Positions 12,386 to 20,669 of a stretch of 52,553 nucleotides of DNA are shown piece by piece. Position 1 is the first letter of the stretch, and each line of letters starts with the position of its first letter. Position numbers and translations under genes: made by a program. Origin of the DNA: Thermotoga sp. (GTDB lineage: Bacteria > Thermotogota > Thermotogae > Thermotogales > Thermotogaceae); assembly GCF_021162145.1 (NCBI RefSeq), contig NZ_JAGGZH010000010.1, positions 1 to 52,553 of the forward strand, read 5' to 3'. The notes under the pieces are model-generated. The model was not told where the DNA came from and made no database searches. It saw nothing but the letters and a program-made list of their open reading frames with translations.

Positions 12386-13633
12386 ATGAACGATCTTGCT
12401 TTCTGGAAGAGGAACTTCGTTCTTCTTGCCCTCGGGAGGTTTGTATCCATTCTTGGAAGTTCCATTCAGGCGGTTGCGATTCCCCTTTTTGTTCTGGATT
12501 TAACGCATTCCGGAACGGCGGTTGCCACCATGAGCATTGCTTACATGATTCCAAGGATATTCCTTATGCCCATCGCGGGAGTTATCGGTGATCGTGGAAA
12601 CAGGAAGTTTCTCATGGTTTCGATGGATTTTCTGAGGGGATTTTTGATCTGTTTTCTCGCACTCCTTGCTGCTAGGGATTCCGTCACACTTTCCGTTCTC
12701 TACCTCTCTCAAGTTGCTATGGCGATCATGGACAATCTCTTTGAGATACCAACCGGTGCGATGTTTCCGGACATCGTCCCGGCTGATTTTTTGATGAAGG
12801 CGAACTCCATCATGGGTATGGTGAGGATCTTTCCACAAATTCTGGGCCCTGCTCTTGGAGGGGTGATCTACGGTTTCTATGGCATAGCAATTGTATTTCT
12901 GGTAAACGGAATCTCTTTTGTTCTTTCTGCCATCAGCGAGATCTTCATAGTTTACAAGCGAAGAGTTGAGAAGAAATCTGCCCATTTTTCACAGATATTC
13001 GAAGATCTGAAGGAAGGCTTCCTTTTCGTCTGGCAACACACCCTCATTCGAACCATTTTAATTTTTGCTCTGTTTTTGAACTTTCTCATCTCACCACTTT
13101 TCATGGTCGTCTACCCTTACACGATCAGAGAAGTAATGAAGTTCTCTGCTCAGGAGTTTGGCTTCCTCGAGACTTCTTTCACCACGGGAGCGCTCATCGG
13201 GAATTTTCTGATAGTGTCTTACCTTTCCAAGAGAAATATGTGGAAGGCTATGAAAATCTCCATTTTTCTCTTCGAGATCCCCATCGTGTTCCTGGGAATT
13301 CTGGTGATGCCAGGTGTTTCCTCAAACCTGGAAAGAAAGATCCTCTTTGCAGCGTTCTTTGTCACGTTCTTGATAATGGGGTTCTTGAATCCCTTGATCA
13401 ATGTGCCACTGGACACAGCGTTTCAGAAAATGACTCCTTCACATGTGAGAGCGAGGGCCTTTTCGTTTTTGATCCTCGTCAGCAACGGCATGATACCACT
13501 TGGTTCTGTTTTATACGGTTATCTGGTAGACAAAACGCCTGTGCACTTTTTGTACTACGGGGTTGGAGTGCTTTCTCTTTTGATCGCTGTGTTGCTTCTG
13601 GTGGTCCTGGAAGGGAAAGAACTTCCCACTTGA
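12386..13633 (+). CDS. Major facilitator superfamily transporter
   Basis: A 415-aa inner-membrane protein with about 12 hydrophobic segments and the MFS loop GVIGDRGNRKFLM between helices 2 and 3. The layout resembles the drug/macrolide exporter (Bcr/MefA-like, MFS_3) group. Substrate unknown. ATG follows AAGGAGGGAACCTA. As last gene of the DUF2089-bactofilin-small membrane protein operon, its expression may be controlled by the DUF2089 protein. The stop codon overlaps the -35 box of the aromatic operon promoter. Confidence 0.85.
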   Translation: MNDLAFWKRNFVLLALGRFVSILGSSIQAVAIPLFVLDLTHSGTAVATMSIAYMIPRIFLMPIAGVIGDRGNRKFLMVSMDFLRGFLICFLALLAARDSVTLSVLYLSQVAMAIMDNLFEIPTGAMFPDIVPADFLMKANSIMGMVRIFPQILGPALGGVIYGFYGIAIVFLVNGISFVLSAISEIFIVYKRRVEKKSAHFSQIFEDLKEGFLFVWQHTLIRTILIFALFLNFLISPLFMVVYPYTIREVMKFSAQEFGFLETSFTTGALIGNFLIVSYLSKRNMWKAMKISIFLFEIPIVFLGILVMPGVSSNLERKILFAAFFVTFLIMGFLNPLINVPLDTAFQKMTPSHVRARAFSFLILVSNGMIPLGSVLYGYLVDKTPVHFLYYGVGVLSLLIAVLLLVVLEGKELPT

Positions 13634-13658
13634 TTTTTTCAAGATACTTTGCTAGAAT
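13630..13658 (+). promoter_or_regulatory. Promoter of the aromatic amino acid operon
   Basis: TTGATT (13630-13635), 17 bases, TAGAAT (13653-13658); expected start about 13665. It overlaps the stop of the MFS gene. It places about 220 bases of leader RNA before aroF. Confidence 0.75.
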
Positions 13659-13683
13659 AGTAACCAAATAGAGGTGAAAAGTT

Positions 13684-13767
13684 ATGCAAAGCAAGAGAAT
13701 GATATGCATCGAATTTGTTGAGTGCGATTATTATTACTTTTGGTTTAACAGGGGCACCTGTCCGTGA
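13684..13767 (+). CDS. Aromatic leader peptide (27 aa) of the aro operon attenuator
   Basis: ATG at 13684 behind GAGGTG (13671-13676), TGA at 13765-13767. Residues 15-22 read DYYYFWFN: three Tyr, Phe, Trp, Phe in a row at codons 16-21 (13729-13746), plus an earlier Phe at codon 11. Such a run is not expected by chance and is the hallmark of a ribosome-stalling leader. Its final codons (NRGTCP and stop) are also the 5' arm of the first RNA hairpin, so the ribosome position decides whether that hairpin can form. Expected role: slow translation when charged tRNA for Tyr, Phe or Trp is scarce lets transcription run into aroF. Confidence 0.85.
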   Translation: MQSKRMICIEFVECDYYYFWFNRGTCP

Positions 13768-13857
13768 GTGCAACCGCTCCGGGCAGGTGCCTTTTTCGGT
13801 ATCTGCCCGGAGCGATAAAGAACACCAAAGGGCTCCGGGCAGCGGAGCCCTTTTTTT
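13753..13857 (+). promoter_or_regulatory. Transcription attenuator with alternative hairpins
   Basis: Five RNA segments can pair exclusively. Segment 1 (13753-13764) pairs with 2 (13780-13791), 12 pairs including one G-U. Segment 2 region (13775-13788) pairs with 3 (13801-13814), 14 pairs including one G-U. Segment 3 (13803-13813) pairs with 4 (13832-13842), 11 pairs. Segment 4 (13830-13837) pairs with 5 (13843-13850), 8 GC-rich pairs followed by T7, the terminator. Stalling at the aromatic codons leaves 1 free, so 1:2 forms, 3 takes 4 and the terminator cannot form. A ribosome reaching the stop covers 1, so 2:3 forms and 4:5 terminates. The 1:2 hairpin is itself followed by T5 and might also pause or terminate. 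Confidence 0.8.
13830..13857 (+). terminator. Intrinsic terminator of the attenuator
   Basis: GGGCTCCG, loop GGCAG, CGGAGCCC, then seven T. It lies between the leader peptide and the aroF ribosome site, so it controls read-through rather than ending an operon. AAA before and TTT after could extend the stem. Confidence 0.88.
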
Positions 13858-13887
13858 ATTATTAAAACTTCGGGAGGTGATAGGTCT

Positions 13888-14904
13888 ATGATAGTGGTTC
13901 TGAGACCCGGTTCTACGGAGGAAGACATAAAGAAGGTGGTGAAGTTGGCGGAGAGTTACAACTTGAGGTGTCACATTTCCAAAGGCCAGGAGCGTACGGT
14001 GATCGGCATCATCGGTGACGACAGGTATGTGGTGGCAGACAAGTTCGAATCTCTGGACTGTGTAGAAAGTGTTGTGAGGGTGCTCAAGCCCTACAAACTC
14101 GTCTCGCGTGAATTCCATCCAGAAGACACGGTGATAGACCTCGGGAACGTGAAGATAGGAAACGGATACTTCACCATCATAGCAGGACCCTGTGCGGTGG
14201 AAGACAGAGAGATGCTCATGGAAACCGCCCATTTTCTCAGCGGGTTTGGGGTGAAGGTTTTAAGAGGAGGAGCTTACAAACCGCGTACCTCACCTTACTC
14301 CTTCCAGGGACTGGGCGAGAAAGGGCTGGAATATTTGAGAGAGGCTGCAGACAGATACGGTATGTACGTTGTGACGGAAGCTCTTGGCGAAGAAGAACTT
14401 CCGAAAGTGGCGGAATACGCCGATATCATCCAGATCGGTGCAAGGAACGCTCAGAACTTCAGACTCCTGTCGAAGGCAGGAAGCTACGACAAACCAGTTC
14501 TTTTGAAAAGAGGTTTCATGAACACTATCGAAGAATTTTTGCTTTCTGCAGAGTACATCGCAAACTCCGGAAACACGAAGATCATACTGTGTGAGAGAGG
14601 AATCAGAACCTTTGAGAAGGCAACGAGGAATACGCTGGACATCTCCGCTGTTCCGATTATCAGGAAAGAATCACACCTTCCTGTTCTCGTTGATCCAAGT
14701 CACTCGGGTGGAAGAAGAGACCTCGTCATCCCGCTTTCCCGAGCGGCCATAGCCGTTGGAGCTCACGGAGTCATGGTGGAAGTTCATCCGGAACCTGAAA
14801 AAGCGCTTTCGGATGGAAAGCAAAGTCTTGATTTCAAGCTCTTTGAAGAACTTGTTCAAGAAATGAAAAAGCTCGCAGAAGCTCTGGGGGTGAAGGTAAA
14901 TTGA
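13888..14904 (+). CDS. aroF: 3-deoxy-7-phosphoheptulonate (DAHP) synthase with N-terminal regulatory domain
   Basis: Condenses phosphoenolpyruvate and erythrose 4-phosphate to DAHP, the entry to the shikimate pathway. 338 aa: residues 1-about 70 are a ferredoxin-like (ACT-like) regulatory domain (MIVVLRPGSTEEDIKKVV), then a type I-beta catalytic barrel with IAGPCAVE, LRGGAYKPRTSPYSFQG, QIGARNAQN, LKRGF and DPSHSGGRR. In T. maritima this enzyme is known to be feedback inhibited through the N-terminal domain by Tyr and Phe; the same layout here predicts it. ATG follows GGGAGGTGAT. Being first behind the attenuator, it is controlled at both transcription and activity by aromatic amino acids. Confidence 0.95.
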   Translation: MIVVLRPGSTEEDIKKVVKLAESYNLRCHISKGQERTVIGIIGDDRYVVADKFESLDCVESVVRVLKPYKLVSREFHPEDTVIDLGNVKIGNGYFTIIAGPCAVEDREMLMETAHFLSGFGVKVLRGGAYKPRTSPYSFQGLGEKGLEYLREAADRYGMYVVTEALGEEELPKVAEYADIIQIGARNAQNFRLLSKAGSYDKPVLLKRGFMNTIEEFLLSAEYIANSGNTKIILCERGIRTFEKATRNTLDISAVPIIRKESHLPVLVDPSHSGGRRDLVIPLSRAAIAVGAHGVMVEVHPEPEKALSDGKQSLDFKLFEELVQEMKKLAEALGVKVN

Positions 14905-15662
14905 CTGTATCCATACTGGGTGCAGGATGTATAGGGGGATCCATGGCTTTGGCTTTGAAAGAAAAACATCACATCAAAACCTTCGATCACAACGAAGAGG
15001 TTTTGGCCTCTTTGAAAAAAGAAGGAATAGAAGTTGTCGACGATCGTGAGAATCTCTACGACGCGGATCTTCTGATTCTTGCTCTTCCTATGAATGTAGA
15101 GGAACGTTTTCTGAGGGAAACAAATTTCGAAGGAAAGATCTTGGACGTGGCGAGCGTAAAGACACCCTTTGTGGAGATAGCAAGAGAGAGAAAGTTGAAC
15201 TTCATCGGTGGACATCCCATGGCAGGAAACGAAAGGAGGGGAAAAGCAGGTTGGGATCCTAGGATGTTCGAAAGAAGGATCTTCTTTCTCTGCTCTCTCG
15301 ATGGAAAAAAAGACGATATCGTTGAAGACATTGTGAAGGATCTTGGGGCCAATCCCGTTTGGGTAGATTACAGAAGACACGACGAGATCGTCGCCGCTGT
15401 AAGCCACGTGCAATACCTGATCTCCCTGAGTGCTCGATTCGTGGGGAAACCCTTCGAAGGGTACGCAGGGCCCGGTTATCAGTCGAACACGAGGCTCTCA
15501 AAACAAAACATGGAAATGGCACTGGATATGATCAGATATAATAAAGAAAACATCCTCAGATACCTTGAGAACGCAAAAAGTTTCCTGAACACCCTCTATA
15601 TCTTTATAGAGACGGAAGACTTTGAAGGCTTAGAGAAAGCCATAAGGGAAGTGATAGCGTGA
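14901..15662 (+). CDS. tyrA: Prephenate dehydrogenase
   Basis: Converts prephenate to 4-hydroxyphenylpyruvate with NAD, the committed step to Tyr. 253 aa: Rossmann start [19 protein letters not shown], then the substrate region [16 protein letters not shown] and the family segment around [13 protein letters not shown]. No ACT domain follows, so feedback control by Tyr is not evident in this chain. The start is TTG overlapping the aroF stop by 4 bases (TTGA), which couples its translation to aroF. A minority of arogenate dehydrogenases look alike; the cofactor-substrate choice is not proven. Confidence 0.9.
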
Positions 15663-16924
15663 AGATACTTCCTGCGAAGAAAGTCTCCGGAACACTGGAT
15701 GTTCCTCCGGACAAGTCCATAACCCACAGGGCATTCATTCTTTCAGCTCTCGCGGAGACCGAAAGCACTCTCTACAACCTTCTAAGGTGCCTTGACACGG
15801 AGAGAACATACGATATTCTCAAAACTCTTGGTACGGTGTTCGAAGGAGATTGGGAAAAGATGAAAGTAGTTCCTCGGCCGTTTGTTGAGCCAATCGATCC
15901 CCTCTTCTGTGGAAACTCCGGAACTACCACAAGATTGATGAGTGGTGTGCTTGCCTCACATGAGATGTTCACGATTCTCTATGGAGATCCCTCTCTTTCC
16001 AGAAGACCGATGAGAAGGGTGATGGAACCTCTGGAGATGATGGGAGCGCGCTTCATGGCGAGGCAGAACAACTTCCTTCCTATGGCCATAAAAGGCAATC
16101 ACCTTTCAGGTATCAGTTACAAAACCCCGGTGGCAAGCGCTCAGGTGAAGAGCGCCATTCTTTTGGCTGGACTCAGAGCGAGTGGAAGAACGATCGTCAT
16201 CGAGCCGGCAAAAAGCAGGGATCACACAGAAAGAATGCTCAAGAACCTGGGAGTTCCTGTTGAAGAGGAAGGAACGCGAGTGGTTCTCGAGCCATCTTCC
16301 TTCAAGGGTTTCAAGATGAGAATACCAGGAGATATTTCTTCGGCAGCTTTTTTCATCGTTCTCGGTGCGATTCATCCCAACGCCCGTATAACAATAACGG
16401 AAGTGGGACTGAATCCCACTCGAACTGGTCTTCTCGAAGTCATGAAACTCATGGGTGCGAACGTGGAGTGGGAGATCACAGAAGAAAATCTCGAACCGAT
16501 CGGAGTTGTGAGAGTGGAAACTTCTCCAAACATGAAAGGGATCATCGTACCGAAAGACATGATACCACTCATGATAGATGAACTTCCGCTTGTTGCACTT
16601 CTTGGTGTTTTTGCCAAAGGAGAAACTGTCGTCAGAGGTGCGGAAGAACTGAGGAAAAAGGAGTCGGACAGGATAAAGGTGCTGGTGGAGAACTTCAGAA
16701 GAATCGGTGTAGAGGTAGAGGAATTCAGAGATGGCTTCAAAGTCTCTGGAAAACAGAGAATAAAGGGTGGGGTAGTGGACCCGGAGGGTGACCACAGAAT
16801 GGCGATGCTCTTTTCAATAGCGGGCCTTGTGAGTGAGGAAGGTATTGATGTGAAGAACCACGAGTGTGTGGCTGTTTCGCTTCCAAATTTCTATGAGCTT
16901 CTTGAAAGGGTGATGATGGTATGA
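15659..16924 (+). CDS. aroA: 3-phosphoshikimate 1-carboxyvinyltransferase (EPSP synthase)
   Basis: Joins shikimate 3-phosphate and PEP to EPSP. 421 aa forming two six-fold domains, with [101 protein letters not shown] and [14 protein letters not shown] all in place. GTG start overlapping the tyrA stop by 4 bases (GTGA). Nothing appears missing. Confidence 0.95.
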
Positions 16925-17682
16925 GGTTTTGCATCATCGGATATCCGGTGAAACACAGCATATCCCCGCGGCTGTACAACGAGTACTTCAGGAGGGCAGG
17001 AATGAATCACCTGTACGTTATGGAGGAGATATTGCCAAGGGATTTCGATACCGAGATAAAAAGGGTGTTGAAGGAGTACGATGGTTTTAACGTCACCATT
17101 CCACACAAAGAGAGAGTTATGGATTATGTAGATCCCGACGAGAATGCAAGGAGAATAAAAGCAGTCAACTGTGTTTTCTGTGGGAAAGGATACAACACAG
17201 ATTGGTTGGGAGTGGTGAAGTCTTTAGAAGGAACGGAGGTAAAGGAACCCGTCATCGTTGTGGGAGCGGGTGGAGCGGCACGGGCAGTAATCTACGCCCT
17301 CCTTCAGCTGGGGGTTGAGGACATCTGGGTGACAAACAGAACGCTCGAGAGGGCCGAAAATCTGGAGTTTCCTGTAAAAACTTTTTCACTTGATCGTCTC
17401 GATGAAATGGTGAGAAAAGCAAAGAGTTTCTTCAACTCCACTTCCGTTGGTATGAAGGGCGAGAGACTGCCTGTTTCCGACACTTCACTGAAAAACCTGT
17501 ATCTCGTTTACGATGTGATCTATTTCGACACCCCGCTCGTTGTGAAAGCGAAGGAACTTGGTGTGAAACATGTCATAAAGGGAGATCTCATGTTCTACTA
17601 TCAGGCGATGGAGAATCTGAAAGTATGGGGAATATACAACGAGAAGGTTTTCAAAGAAGTGTTCGAGGAGGTTCTGAGATGA
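16921..17682 (+). CDS. aroE: Shikimate dehydrogenase
   Basis: Reduces 3-dehydroshikimate with NADPH. 253 aa: substrate-binding start [17 protein letters not shown], catalytic Lys in [11 protein letters not shown], and the nucleotide-binding [19 protein letters not shown] followed by [12 protein letters not shown]. The Asn/Arg after the second strand (TNRT) fits NADP preference. ATG overlaps the aroA stop by 4 bases, and the aroC start overlaps its own stop by 4. Confidence 0.94.
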
Positions 17683-18809
17683 AGATCACAATAGCAGGGG
17701 ATTCCCACGGAAAGTGCATGGTTGCGATTCTGGAGGGTATCCCTGCTGGGGTAAGAATCGATGAAGATCTCATAAGGAACGATCTTTTCAGGAGAAGAAA
17801 CTGTTACGGTAGAGGGGAGAGGATGAAAATAGAGGAAGATGCGTTCGAAATAGTTTCAGGATTGTGGAAAGGTGTCACAACGGGTGCTCCGGTGACGATC
17901 CTCGTTCCTAACAGGGCAGGGAACCCTGTGAAGGATGTTCGAAGTGTTCCAAGACCTGGGCATATCGATTACGCTGCATGGGTGAAATACAAACTTCCAG
18001 ACCTGAACGTCTACGTGGAGCGATCCAGTGCGAGGTGGACGGTGGCACTCACAGCGGCGGGGGCTCTTTTGAAGAGTCTTCTCAGAGAGTTCGGTATCGA
18101 AGTACTCGGATTCGTCACTAGACTCGGAGGTGTGGAGGCAAAGGACATCCCGAACGATTTCGAGGAACTGAAGAGAAAGAGGAACGAGTCTGAGGTTTTC
18201 TGTCCAGATCCTGTGGCAACGAAGGAAATGATCGTCGAGATCGACAGGGCAAAAAGAGAGGGGAACACTCTCGGTGGCAAGGTGAGGGTCGTTGCAAAAG
18301 GGATTCCCGCAGGTATCGGGAGTTATTCGGACCTGTTCAAAAAACTCGATTCGAAGATAGGTTCACTCTTTTTCACCATTCCTGCTGTTAAGGGTGTAGT
18401 GGTGGGAAATGAAGAGATGTGGTATGGGTTTGACTACCTGGACGAGTTCGAGATCCTGGATGGGAAGATTCGAAGAAAGACGAACAACTTGGGTGGAATA
18501 GAAGGTGGGATTTCTAACGGTGAAGATATCTGGGTGAACGTCTACGTGAAGCCCATTCCCACTACGGGGAAACCTCTGGATTCCGTTGATCTGCGAGCGA
18601 TGAAGCCCGAAAAAACACCGTACGTGAGATCGGATGTGACTGCTGTGCCTCCCGCTTCCGTTGTATGTGAAGCGGCTCTCGCTGTAGTGCTCTCAGACGT
18701 TTTGCTCGATCACCTGGGTGAGGGAAACATCAACGACCTGAAAAGGAGGTTCGAGAATGAGGATCTTCCTCGTTGGGATGATGGGTTCTGGAAAGAGCAC
18801 GATAGGTAA
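17679..18809 (+). CDS. aroC: Chorismate synthase
   Basis: Eliminates phosphate from EPSP giving chorismate, using reduced FMN. 376 aa beginning [20 protein letters not shown] with the conserved GDSHG; RRRNCYGRGERMKIE, RPGHIDYAAWVKY, ERSSARWTVALTAAGA, NLGGIEGGISNGEDI and RSDVTAVPPASVVCEA follow. The start at 17679 is the one that begins at the family N-terminus and overlaps aroE as ATGA; the open frame upstream is shadow. Its last 53 bases overlap aroKB in another frame, giving an atypical acidic, Trp-containing tail (RWDDGFWKEHDR). Confidence 0.95.
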   Translation: MKITIAGDSHGKCMVAILEGIPAGVRIDEDLIRNDLFRRRNCYGRGERMKIEEDAFEIVSGLWKGVTTGAPVTILVPNRAGNPVKDVRSVPRPGHIDYAAWVKYKLPDLNVYVERSSARWTVALTAAGALLKSLLREFGIEVLGFVTRLGGVEAKDIPNDFEELKRKRNESEVFCPDPVATKEMIVEIDRAKREGNTLGGKVRVVAKGIPAGIGSYSDLFKKLDSKIGSLFFTIPAVKGVVVGNEEMWYGFDYLDEFEILDGKIRRKTNNLGGIEGGISNGEDIWVNVYVKPIPTTGKPLDSVDLRAMKPEKTPYVRSDVTAVPPASVVCEAALAVVLSDVLLDHLGEGNINDLKRRFENEDLPRWDDGFWKEHDR

Positions 18810-20235
18810 AAAAGTAGCGGACGTACTCGATCTTGAGTTCGTGGACATGGACGCTGAGATAGAAAGAAGGGAAAAGAGAAGCATCAACCGAATCTTCGAA
18901 GAAGATGGAGAAGAATACTTCAGACTGAGAGAAAAGGCCCTTTTGAAAGAGCTCGTTCAAAAAGACAATATCGTGGTGTCAACGGGTGGAGGAGTGGTTC
19001 TTGATCCGGAAAGCAGAGAACTTTTGAAGAAAGAAAAGACACTTTTCCTCTATGCTCCTCCCGAAGTGTTGATCGAGAGAGTTACGGAAGAGAACAGACC
19101 CCTCCTCAAGGAGGGTAAAGAGAAAATATACGAGATTTGGGAAGGAAGAAAGCATTTTTACGCGGAGTTCAGAAGAATCGATACTTCCAGGCTGAATGAG
19201 TGGGAAACGACAGCACTCGTCGTTCTGGAAGCACTCGATGGAAAGGAAGTGTTGGTGATAGAAAAACCCCATCGTGTGGAGATCGTCCTTGGAGGCTTCA
19301 AAAGAGTTAGGGATGAAGAACTGGTCTTCACTACAGAGAGAGTTGAAAAGATTTACGGAAGGTACCTTCCAGAAAGGAGGTTGCTCTTTCCAGATGGAGA
19401 AGCCGTGAAGAGTCTAGAACACGTTACAAGAGCTTACTACGAACTTGTGAAGATGGACTTTCCAAGGGACAAAGTCATTGTCGGTGTCGGGGGAGGAGCC
19501 CTCACAGATTTTACCGGCTTTGTGGCCAGCACTTTCAAGAGGGGTGTGGGACTCTCCTTCTACCCAACTACCCTTCTCGCTCAGGTTGATGCCTCCGTTG
19601 GGGGAAAGAACGCCATCGATTTTGCAGGAGTGAAGAACATCATCGGAACTTTCAGAATGCCTGATTATGTGATCATAGATCCTGTCGTAGCACTCTCCAT
19701 GGACGAAGGTAGGTTTGAAGAGGGTGTGGTAGAAGCCTTCAAGATGACCCTCCTCTCCGGAAAGGGATTGGACCTCTTCGATGATCCGGAGAAGATAGAA
19801 AAGAGAAGTCTCAGAGTTCTCAGTGAGATGGTGAAGATATCCGTGGAAGAGAAGGCAAAGATAGTGGTGGAAGATCCCTACGATAAAGTGTTGAGACATG
19901 CTCTGAACCTGGGTCACACACTGGGGCATGTCTACGAGATGCTGGAAGAGGTCCCCCACGGTATAGCAGTGGCCTGGGGGCTCGAGAAAGAGACGATGTA
20001 CCTGTACAGAAAGGGGATAGTTCCAAAGGAGACCTTGAAGTGGATCGTTGAGAGAATAAAGCAGATCGTACCGATCCCGGTTCCGGCCATCGACAGAGAG
20101 AAGGCTAGAAATCTGATTCTGAACGACAAAAAAATCCTGAAAGGGTCCAGGGTGCGACTTCCTTACGTGAGAGAGATCGGAAAGGTGGAGTTTCTGGAAG
20201 TGGATCCCCTCGAACTTCTGGAGGTGGTAGATTGA
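18757..20235 (+). CDS. aroKB: Shikimate kinase - 3-dehydroquinate synthase fusion
   Basis: One 492-aa chain with two shikimate enzymes. Residues 1-about 165 are shikimate kinase (P-loop GMMGSGKS at 7-14, VDMDAEIERR, STGGGVVLD, TEENRPLL). Residues about 168-492 are dehydroquinate synthase (PDGEAVKSLEHV, GVGGGALTDFTGFVAST, PTTLLAQVDASVGGKNAIDF, LNLGHTLGH). The two catalyse steps 5 and 2 of the pathway, so the fusion links non-consecutive reactions. The ATG follows AAGGAGGTTCGAG inside the end of aroC. The order kinase-synthase is seen in Thermotogales from memory; it is not the bifunctional order of most bacteria, which keep the genes separate. Confidence 0.94.
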   Translation: MRIFLVGMMGSGKSTIGKKVADVLDLEFVDMDAEIERREKRSINRIFEEDGEEYFRLREKALLKELVQKDNIVVSTGGGVVLDPESRELLKKEKTLFLYAPPEVLIERVTEENRPLLKEGKEKIYEIWEGRKHFYAEFRRIDTSRLNEWETTALVVLEALDGKEVLVIEKPHRVEIVLGGFKRVRDEELVFTTERVEKIYGRYLPERRLLFPDGEAVKSLEHVTRAYYELVKMDFPRDKVIVGVGGGALTDFTGFVASTFKRGVGLSFYPTTLLAQVDASVGGKNAIDFAGVKNIIGTFRMPDYVIIDPVVALSMDEGRFEEGVVEAFKMTLLSGKGLDLFDDPEKIEKRSLRVLSEMVKISVEEKAKIVVEDPYDKVLRHALNLGHTLGHVYEMLEEVPHGIAVAWGLEKETMYLYRKGIVPKETLKWIVERIKQIVPIPVPAIDREKARNLILNDKKILKGSRVRLPYVREIGKVEFLEVDPLELLEVVD

Positions 20236-20669
20236 AGCTGCTCGTTGTGAACGGACCGAATCTGAACATGTTAGGAAAGAGAGACAAGAGTGTATATGGA
20301 AGTTTCGCGTACGATGAGCTGGTGAAGATGATAGAGGATTGGTCGAGAGAAAACAACGTGGAGGTGGAGGTCTTCCAGTCCAATCACGAGGGAGAGATCG
20401 TGGACAGGTTGCACAGACTCGACTTCGACGGCTTAGTCATAAACCCCGGCGCGTTCACGCACTACAGCTACGCCATAAGGGATGCCCTCGAGATCGTGAG
20501 AGTGCCGAAGGTTGAGGTTCACATATCGAACATACACAGAAGGGAAGAGTTCAGAAGAAAGAGTGTTACGGCAGAGGTCTGTGACGGTCAGATCAGCGGC
20601 CTTGGGGTTTATGGGTACATACTCGCACTAGAGTACGTGAAAAAAGTCTCCTCTGAAAGCACCGATTAA
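20232..20669 (+). CDS. aroQ: Type II 3-dehydroquinate dehydratase
   Basis: Dehydrates 3-dehydroquinate. 145 aa with the type II signatures VNGPNLNMLGKRDKSVYG (N-terminus with catalytic Tyr), FQSNHEGEIVDRLH, INPGAFTHYSYAIRDAL and VEVHISNIHRREEFRRKS. The start is TTG overlapping the aroKB stop by 4 bases. It is the last gene of the operon; its 3' end overlaps the converging exporter gene by 42 bases and no terminator is visible after it. Confidence 0.95.
   Translation: MKLLVVNGPNLNMLGKRDKSVYGSFAYDELVKMIEDWSRENNVEVEVFQSNHEGEIVDRLHRLDFDGLVINPGAFTHYSYAIRDALEIVRVPKVEVHISNIHRREEFRRKSVTAEVCDGQISGLGVYGYILALEYVKKVSSESTD

Follow-up and report, generated by a model that had tools for sequence, protein, structure and literature searches.

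The region ahead of aroF in this Thermotoga DNA raises the question of whether one short leader peptide can report on tyrosine, phenylalanine and tryptophan together. A leader peptide is commonly taken to read a single amino acid; the one described here seems to integrate all three end products of a branched pathway at the point where that pathway begins, and it comes from a thermophilic phylum for which no published leader-peptide attenuation was found. Sequence comparison points to transcription attenuation by a translating ribosome, with OR logic over whichever aromatic amino acids the cell makes (probability about 0.85), and the leader is very probably a combined starvation sensor for Tyr, Phe and Trp.

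The aro operon and its leader

In the window (the whole stretch of 52,553 nucleotides that was analyzed, from genome G000), seven genes that overlap or abut form an operon, with the leader at its head:

13888..14904, + strand, aroF, DAHP synthase with ferredoxin-like N-terminal domain (PF00793, PF18152)
14901..15662, + strand, tyrA, prephenate dehydrogenase (PF02153, PF20463)
15659..16924, + strand, aroA, EPSP synthase (PF00275)
16921..17682, + strand, aroE, shikimate dehydrogenase (PF08501, PF01488)
17676..18809, + strand, aroC, chorismate synthase (PF01264)
18757..20235, + strand, aroKB, fused shikimate kinase and 3-dehydroquinate synthase (PF01202, PF01761, PF24621)
20232..20669, + strand, aroQ, type II dehydroquinase, operon end (PF01220)

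The operon comprises all the common-pathway genes and tyrA, without trp genes and without prephenate dehydratase. These Pfam assignments agree with the sequence-only reading, which had placed the leader in front of the common pathway plus tyrA. Neither trpE nor the dehydratase gene was found to be preceded by an attenuator in the window's genus, which may leave the aro leader as the sole Trp-reading attenuator there. Two minor observations concern the genes themselves: aroKB begins about 50 bases before aroC ends (18757-18809), and the trpA match of this genome (C82:3082-3800) is divided into two neighboring parts that lie in different frames (E 4.7e-49 and 5.8e-12), which would fit a frameshift or a draft-assembly error.

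Between the upstream transporter gene (12386-13633) and aroF, the following elements were located:

13630..13658, + strand, promoter-like TTGATT-N17-TAGAAT with TG before the -10 (consensus scan), likely start about 13665
13671-13677, + strand, ribosome-binding site GAGGTGA, preceding the leader ORF
13684..13767, + strand, leader peptide ORF of 27 codons, MQSKRMICIEFVECDYYYFWFNRGTCP followed by a stop (sequence, leader scan)
13729..13746, + strand, putative sensor codon run TAT TAT TAC TTT TGG TTT (Tyr3-Phe-Trp-Phe), codons 16-21 of the leader
13753..13764, + strand, segment 1, the last four sense codons of the leader, pairing with segment 2
13775..13791, + strand, segment 2, pairing with 1 over 13780-13791 or with 3 over its full length (inverted repeats)
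13798..13814, + strand, segment 3, pairing with 2, or with 4 over 13803-13813 (inverted repeats)
13827..13842, + strand, segment 4, antiterminator with 3 over 13832-13842 or terminator with 5 over 13827-13837
13843..13860, + strand, segment 5 (13843-13853) and T7 tract, intrinsic terminator (stem and T run)

The 27-codon ORF with a Tyr-Tyr-Tyr-Phe-Trp-Phe run that had been proposed before aroF was confirmed with its ribosome-binding site, and the transcription start near 13665, previously assumed, fits the promoter-like site, whose TTGA...TAGAAT arrangement stands at the equivalent place in six congeners and in L009. A short predicted ORF with start codon and ribosome-binding site is thus found ahead of the operon, and its six consecutive aromatic codons represent an excess of codons for the amino acids of the pathway. 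YYYFWF is the only run with at least six aromatic codons in all six frames of the whole window, compared with 0.08 such runs expected per Markov-randomised window and 0.04 runs containing Tyr, Phe and Trp. The frame of the ORF is kept in all congeners; species differ in the N-terminal half of the peptide, and its C-terminus, YYYFWFN(R/K)GTCP, is constant inside the genus.

Alternative pairings and the proposed mechanism

The pairings 1:2, 2:3, 3:4 and 4:5, each excluding its neighbors and the last forming a terminator with T7, had been predicted, and the repeats were found as claimed. Segment 1 (13753-13764) pairs with 13780-13791 at 11/12 positions according to the repeat finder, or 12/12 counting one G-U pair, and this stem can be extended inward (GAGTG/CGCTC), then enclosing the stop codon. 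The inverted-repeat search pairs 13775-13791 with 13798-13814, and 13803-13813 with 13832-13842 (11/11). For the repeat unit, the pairing that had been described held and the length did not, as 2:3 spans 17 nt, beyond the 11-nt repeat. The terminator (13827-13853) has an 11 bp stem with 7 G-C pairs followed by T7, and lies 35 nt before aroF. Hairpin 1:2 of G000 has TTTTT behind it (13792-13796), a T run that is broken (TCTTT) in some congeners, and the hairpin with this run might itself pause or terminate transcription.

The leader region is present once in the genome, and it folds much better than shuffled sequences do (z = -5.98). At 80 °C the energies are -23.0 kcal/mol for 2:3 with 4:5, -8.4 kcal/mol for 3:4 and -13.0 kcal/mol for the extended 1:2. 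Folding at this temperature had been suggested as a check, and in the model the two alternative states are comparable in energy, close enough for switching. The fully folded RNA favors the terminated state (2:3 with 4:5), so the ON state would depend on kinetics.

The mechanism is very likely the one that had been proposed, and from the arrangement described above we infer that the ribosome stalls, in what order the helices fold, that transcription terminates in vivo and that each of the three amino acids is sensed. A ribosome would translate the leader behind the RNA polymerase and, when Tyr-, Phe- or Trp-tRNA is short, would stall in codons 16-21. As a rule of thumb, a ribosome reaches about 12 nt past the start of its A-site codon; the stalled leading edge would then lie at about 13741-13756, leaving segment 1 (from 13753) mostly or wholly free. 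Free segment 1 would allow hairpin 1:2, segment 3 would pair with 4, the 4:5 terminator would not form, and the aro operon would be read. With all three tRNAs charged, the ribosome would reach the stop codon at 13765 and cover segment 1, so that 2:3 and then 4:5 would form and transcription would end near 13857. Ribosome reach and segment coordinates together thus predict 1:2 and 3:4 under starvation, and 2:3 and 4:5 under plenty, the state being chosen by the order of synthesis. The same anatomy predicts that in untranslated RNA 1:2 would form first, giving read-through by default, opposite to E. coli trp.

Distribution and covariation in Thermotogota

Homologues of aroF were sought in 103 Thermotogota genomes and are present in 59. 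Reading the upstream sequences gave 43 leaders at primary aroF genes and three at second copies. Such leaders, each with aromatic codons densely clustered and then a terminator, precede aroF in families f1, f2, f3, f5, f7, f8, f9, f10 and f11. Runs containing Tyr, Phe and Trp occur in seven families of the phylum, and those of other genera include YYYYWF, FFYAYWF, YWWFYYY, FWWFYY, YYYYFRW, FWFYSY, YFWFYY, YYWYF and YYYYYWF. The automatic leader scan missed seven leaders (in f8, f9 and f10, and one on a truncated contig) for threshold reasons; except for the truncated one, these were recovered from the upstream sequence and their frame was checked. Where aroF lies behind a chorismate mutase gene, the leader precedes the latter in G046 and G100, and none was found in G048 or for the first copy of G097. 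Leaders before pheA were also looked for and not found, and a separate contig scan returned three loci, two of them outside Thermotogota and without a leader.

Helices of the five-segment type (f1, f5, f7, f9 and f11) were registered by hand because MAFFT misaligned segments 3 and 5 of f9 and f7. For the covariation counts, segments of equal length were joined by A linkers and one bulged T (segment 3 of f9) was omitted. On this basis, helices 1:2 and 4:5 are paired in 98.0% of cells, with 10 pairs changed on both sides against 4.7 in shuffles; 0/500 shuffles were as good, and slid controls reached at most 50% paired. Changes on both sides in relatives affect 6/12 pairs of helix 1:2 and four pairs of helix 4:5. 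Helix 2:3 is 90.0% paired, with 7 pairs changed on both sides compared to 2.8 in shuffles (again 0/500 as good), and sliding its partners destroys the pairing. Little variation is seen in the central CTCCGGGCAG, as would be expected of bases that each take part in two pairings. In f1, f5, f7 and f11, the sequence behind the stop codon pairs with the 5' arm of the terminator better than shuffles do; in f9 the 3:4 pairing is no better than shuffles. A mutually exclusive antiterminator and intrinsic terminator are thus found in the pairings, in their covariation and in an antiterminator above shuffles. Relatives share both the aromatic run and the stems, the latter with covariation, so that the main conservation check proposed in the sequence-only reading was passed.

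A simpler three-segment fold occurs in f2, f3, f8 and f10, in which the last part of the leader ORF itself pairs with the 5' arm of the terminator (-23 to -42 kcal/mol), with 0/200 shuffles as good, or 2/200 for one leader. The leader of G097 stands outside this shuffle scoring; by eye, GACATCTGAT of its ORF pairs with ATCAGGTGTC before the terminator. These pairings suggest that two RNA folds serve a single logic, in which the antiterminator would form while a ribosome waits in the run and would not form once the ribosome is at the stop codon.

Codon run and pathway genes

Pathway genes were identified with profiles for trpE (TIGR00564), trpA (PF00290), prephenate dehydratase (PF00800) and tyrA (PF02153). 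With the run taken as the densest stretch in which non-aromatic residues never occur two in a row, a rule set after the sequences had been seen, Trp is in the run of 27/29 primary leaders from genomes with trpE against 0/14 from genomes without it (Fisher 1.5e-9; genus-collapsed 6.9e-5); counting Trp anywhere in the peptide weakens this link (p 0.0026). The absences of trpE agree with those of trpA. For Phe the association is looser, with 25/31 leaders where prephenate dehydratase is present and 2/12 where it is absent (Fisher 1.9e-4; genus-collapsed 0.003); G049 and G058, two genomes 86-87% complete, have Phe in the run without a detected dehydratase. Trait simulation on the aroF tree, which is a gene tree, reached the Trp association in 0/4000 cases and gave 0.0125-0.017 for Phe. 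Tyr is in the run of 45/46 aroF leaders, the exception being the leader of the aro-trp operon of G097. It had been argued that all three residues are present since all three products are needed; the loss of Trp and Phe from the run in lineages lacking trpE or prephenate dehydratase lends this independent support.

Individual lineages display the same correspondence. In genus g22, the leader of G059, which has trpE and pheA, reads NFWYYHRTRF, compared with NYGYYQRTRF in G060, where both genes are absent. The aroF genes of G023 and G025 (f3; L011, L014) nest inside f10 in the AroF tree, which suggests horizontal transfer of the gene together with its leader, and their run reads YYYYYCSTP versus YYWYFSKTP in f10, in hosts without trpE, trpA and prephenate dehydratase. 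Trp is in the run in genus g20 where aroF adjoins trpA-trpE-trpG (G052, G053), and is absent from it where aroF and trpE are on different contigs (G054, G055). The G083 operon aroF-aroA-tyrA-aminotransferase has the run YCYYY, with Tyr as its only aromatic residue. In G097, the operon aroF-aroB-aroA-aroC-trpE-trpGD-trpCF-trpB-trpA is headed by a leader with Trp only, SWWNSKTSDRWL:

G097:C1:1250700-1262000 (L063, L136), aro-trp operon with Trp-only leader MKYNINKKLNNVISWWNSKTSDRWL

Family f9 has prephenate dehydratase, yet Tyr alone is in the run adjacent to the stem. A second conserved cluster, ending in F-S-W-I-N-A, is also seen upstream of the Tyr run in f9 leaders (L025, L027-L032), though these genomes lack trpE.

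As far as sequence comparison goes, this tracking of codons with pathway genes is the strongest evidence for the attenuator reading. Evolution would have fitted the choice of aromatic codons in the run to the end products that the pathway of the cell or of the operon yields. Somewhat less firmly than the mechanism, we think it probable that these leaders form an old, phylum-wide Thermotogota attenuator family before DAHP synthase, in which one OR-type peptide for Tyr, Phe and Trp had its codons rewritten one by one upon loss or gain of a terminal branch or a move to a new host or operon; this would be the first multivalent aromatic leader, with two folds and ON when untranslated. As the codons go with the presence or absence of trpE and pheA, the sequence of a leader is by itself of help in predicting which aromatic amino acids a strain makes from chorismate, and the family offers a natural substitution series for testing the evolution of regulatory specificity.

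Alternative explanations

The same leader could be an attenuator that senses Tyr only, the Phe and Trp codons being passengers or fine tuning. Tyr is indeed the most constant and most repeated residue in the aroF leaders, tyrA sits in the Thermotoga aro operon, and the C. glutamicum aroR leader, which reads Phe-Tyr-Phe, answers Phe limitation and not Tyr limitation (PMC11802643). However, across the tree Trp goes with trpE and Phe with prephenate dehydratase, which would not be so for passengers, and substitutions at aligned positions accompany the loss of the pathway (G059/G060; f10/G023), which makes this explanation unlikely. An arrest peptide of the TnaC kind, in which a free aromatic amino acid, bound by the nascent chain within the ribosome tunnel, causes stalling at one set position, would agree with a short aromatic-rich ORF before a terminator and with the C-terminus that is constant within the genus. 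But the N-terminal half, which would be located in the tunnel, varies freely between congeners, so that no conserved tunnel peptide is found, the order of residues in the run changes from family to family (YYYFWF, FFYAYWF, YWWFYYY, YYWYF, FWFYY), and the constancy of the C-terminus is explained by its encoding an RNA stem; an arrest peptide is therefore very improbable.

Two further candidates were rejected. The strong terminator that follows the transporter gene might simply serve that gene, with the ORF and repeats incidental; this is contradicted by the conserved association with aroF, since the promoter-like site, ribosome-binding site, ORF, covarying helices and codon run are all conserved before aroF despite differing upstream sequence. 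A T-box or another aptamer antiterminator for an aromatic tRNA or amino acid, the T-box being what Firmicutes usually employ for amino acid operons, is just as implausible: the only Rfam match in the whole window is one tRNA, with none to the Rfam amino-acid leaders (Trp, Phe, His, Thr, Leu), the T-box covariance model has no match in the window, and the leader-peptide scheme accounts for all the helices.

Relation to known leaders

Leader-peptide attenuation is a classical mechanism. In E. coli trpL and pheL, likewise, stalling at codons for a scarce aminoacyl-tRNA picks the antiterminator or the terminator, but each of these leaders reads one amino acid, stands before a terminal branch and has four segments, and the untranslated RNA gives termination. 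Multivalent leaders are known in E. coli from ilvGMEDA (Ile, Val, Leu) and thrABC (Thr, Ile), which read several amino acids per leader as here, but other ones, and in the E. coli his leader more than four alternative segments form a chain.

Two aromatic leaders before aroF have been described, and these come closest to the present one among known cases. The aroR leader of C. glutamicum (Neshat et al. 2014, as reviewed), with Phe-Tyr-Phe and ribosome-mediated attenuation, is likewise an aromatic leader peptide before DAHP synthase (PMC11802643), but it belongs to another phylum and has no reported Trp; compared by description only, the Thermotogota leader differs from it in the combination of Tyr, Phe and Trp, the five-segment fold and the phylum-wide adjustment to the pathway genes. 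The uORFC-13-1 motif of Acholeplasma, a prediction for which Phe was proposed (PMC8632094), also consists of a small upstream ORF and a terminator before aroF, but involves Phe only and another structure. Since both were already described, the novelty is narrower than had been stated: within the literature searched, the statement that no published description was known holds for a Tyr-Phe-Trp leader, but not for aromatic leaders before DAHP synthase. The apparent novelty lies in the reading of three amino acids, in its distribution across the phylum and in the match between codons and pathway.

The earlier-known leader-peptide systems came only from Proteobacteria and Actinobacteria, to which Naville and Gautheret added Firmicutes (PMC2965389), and the T. 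maritima transcriptome paper does not mention attenuation in its main text (PMC3636130). Our literature search returned nothing specific on leader peptides or attenuation in Thermotoga, nor on any Tyr-Phe-Trp leader. The abstract of the attenuator survey by Vitreschak et al. in FEMS Microbiology Letters in 2004 reportedly names Thermotogales, and an earlier prediction of the Thermotogota aro leader in that survey is possible.

Within the phylum, f10 genomes also have dedicated Trp leaders (...NIINWWWHLG and variants), then a terminator, before trpE, in addition to the aro leader (L089, L093-L095, L098, L099, L101, L103 and L104; 200-590 nt before the trpE match). These share the combination of leader peptide and terminator with the aro leader, but their ...NWWWHLG peptides read Trp only and precede trp genes.
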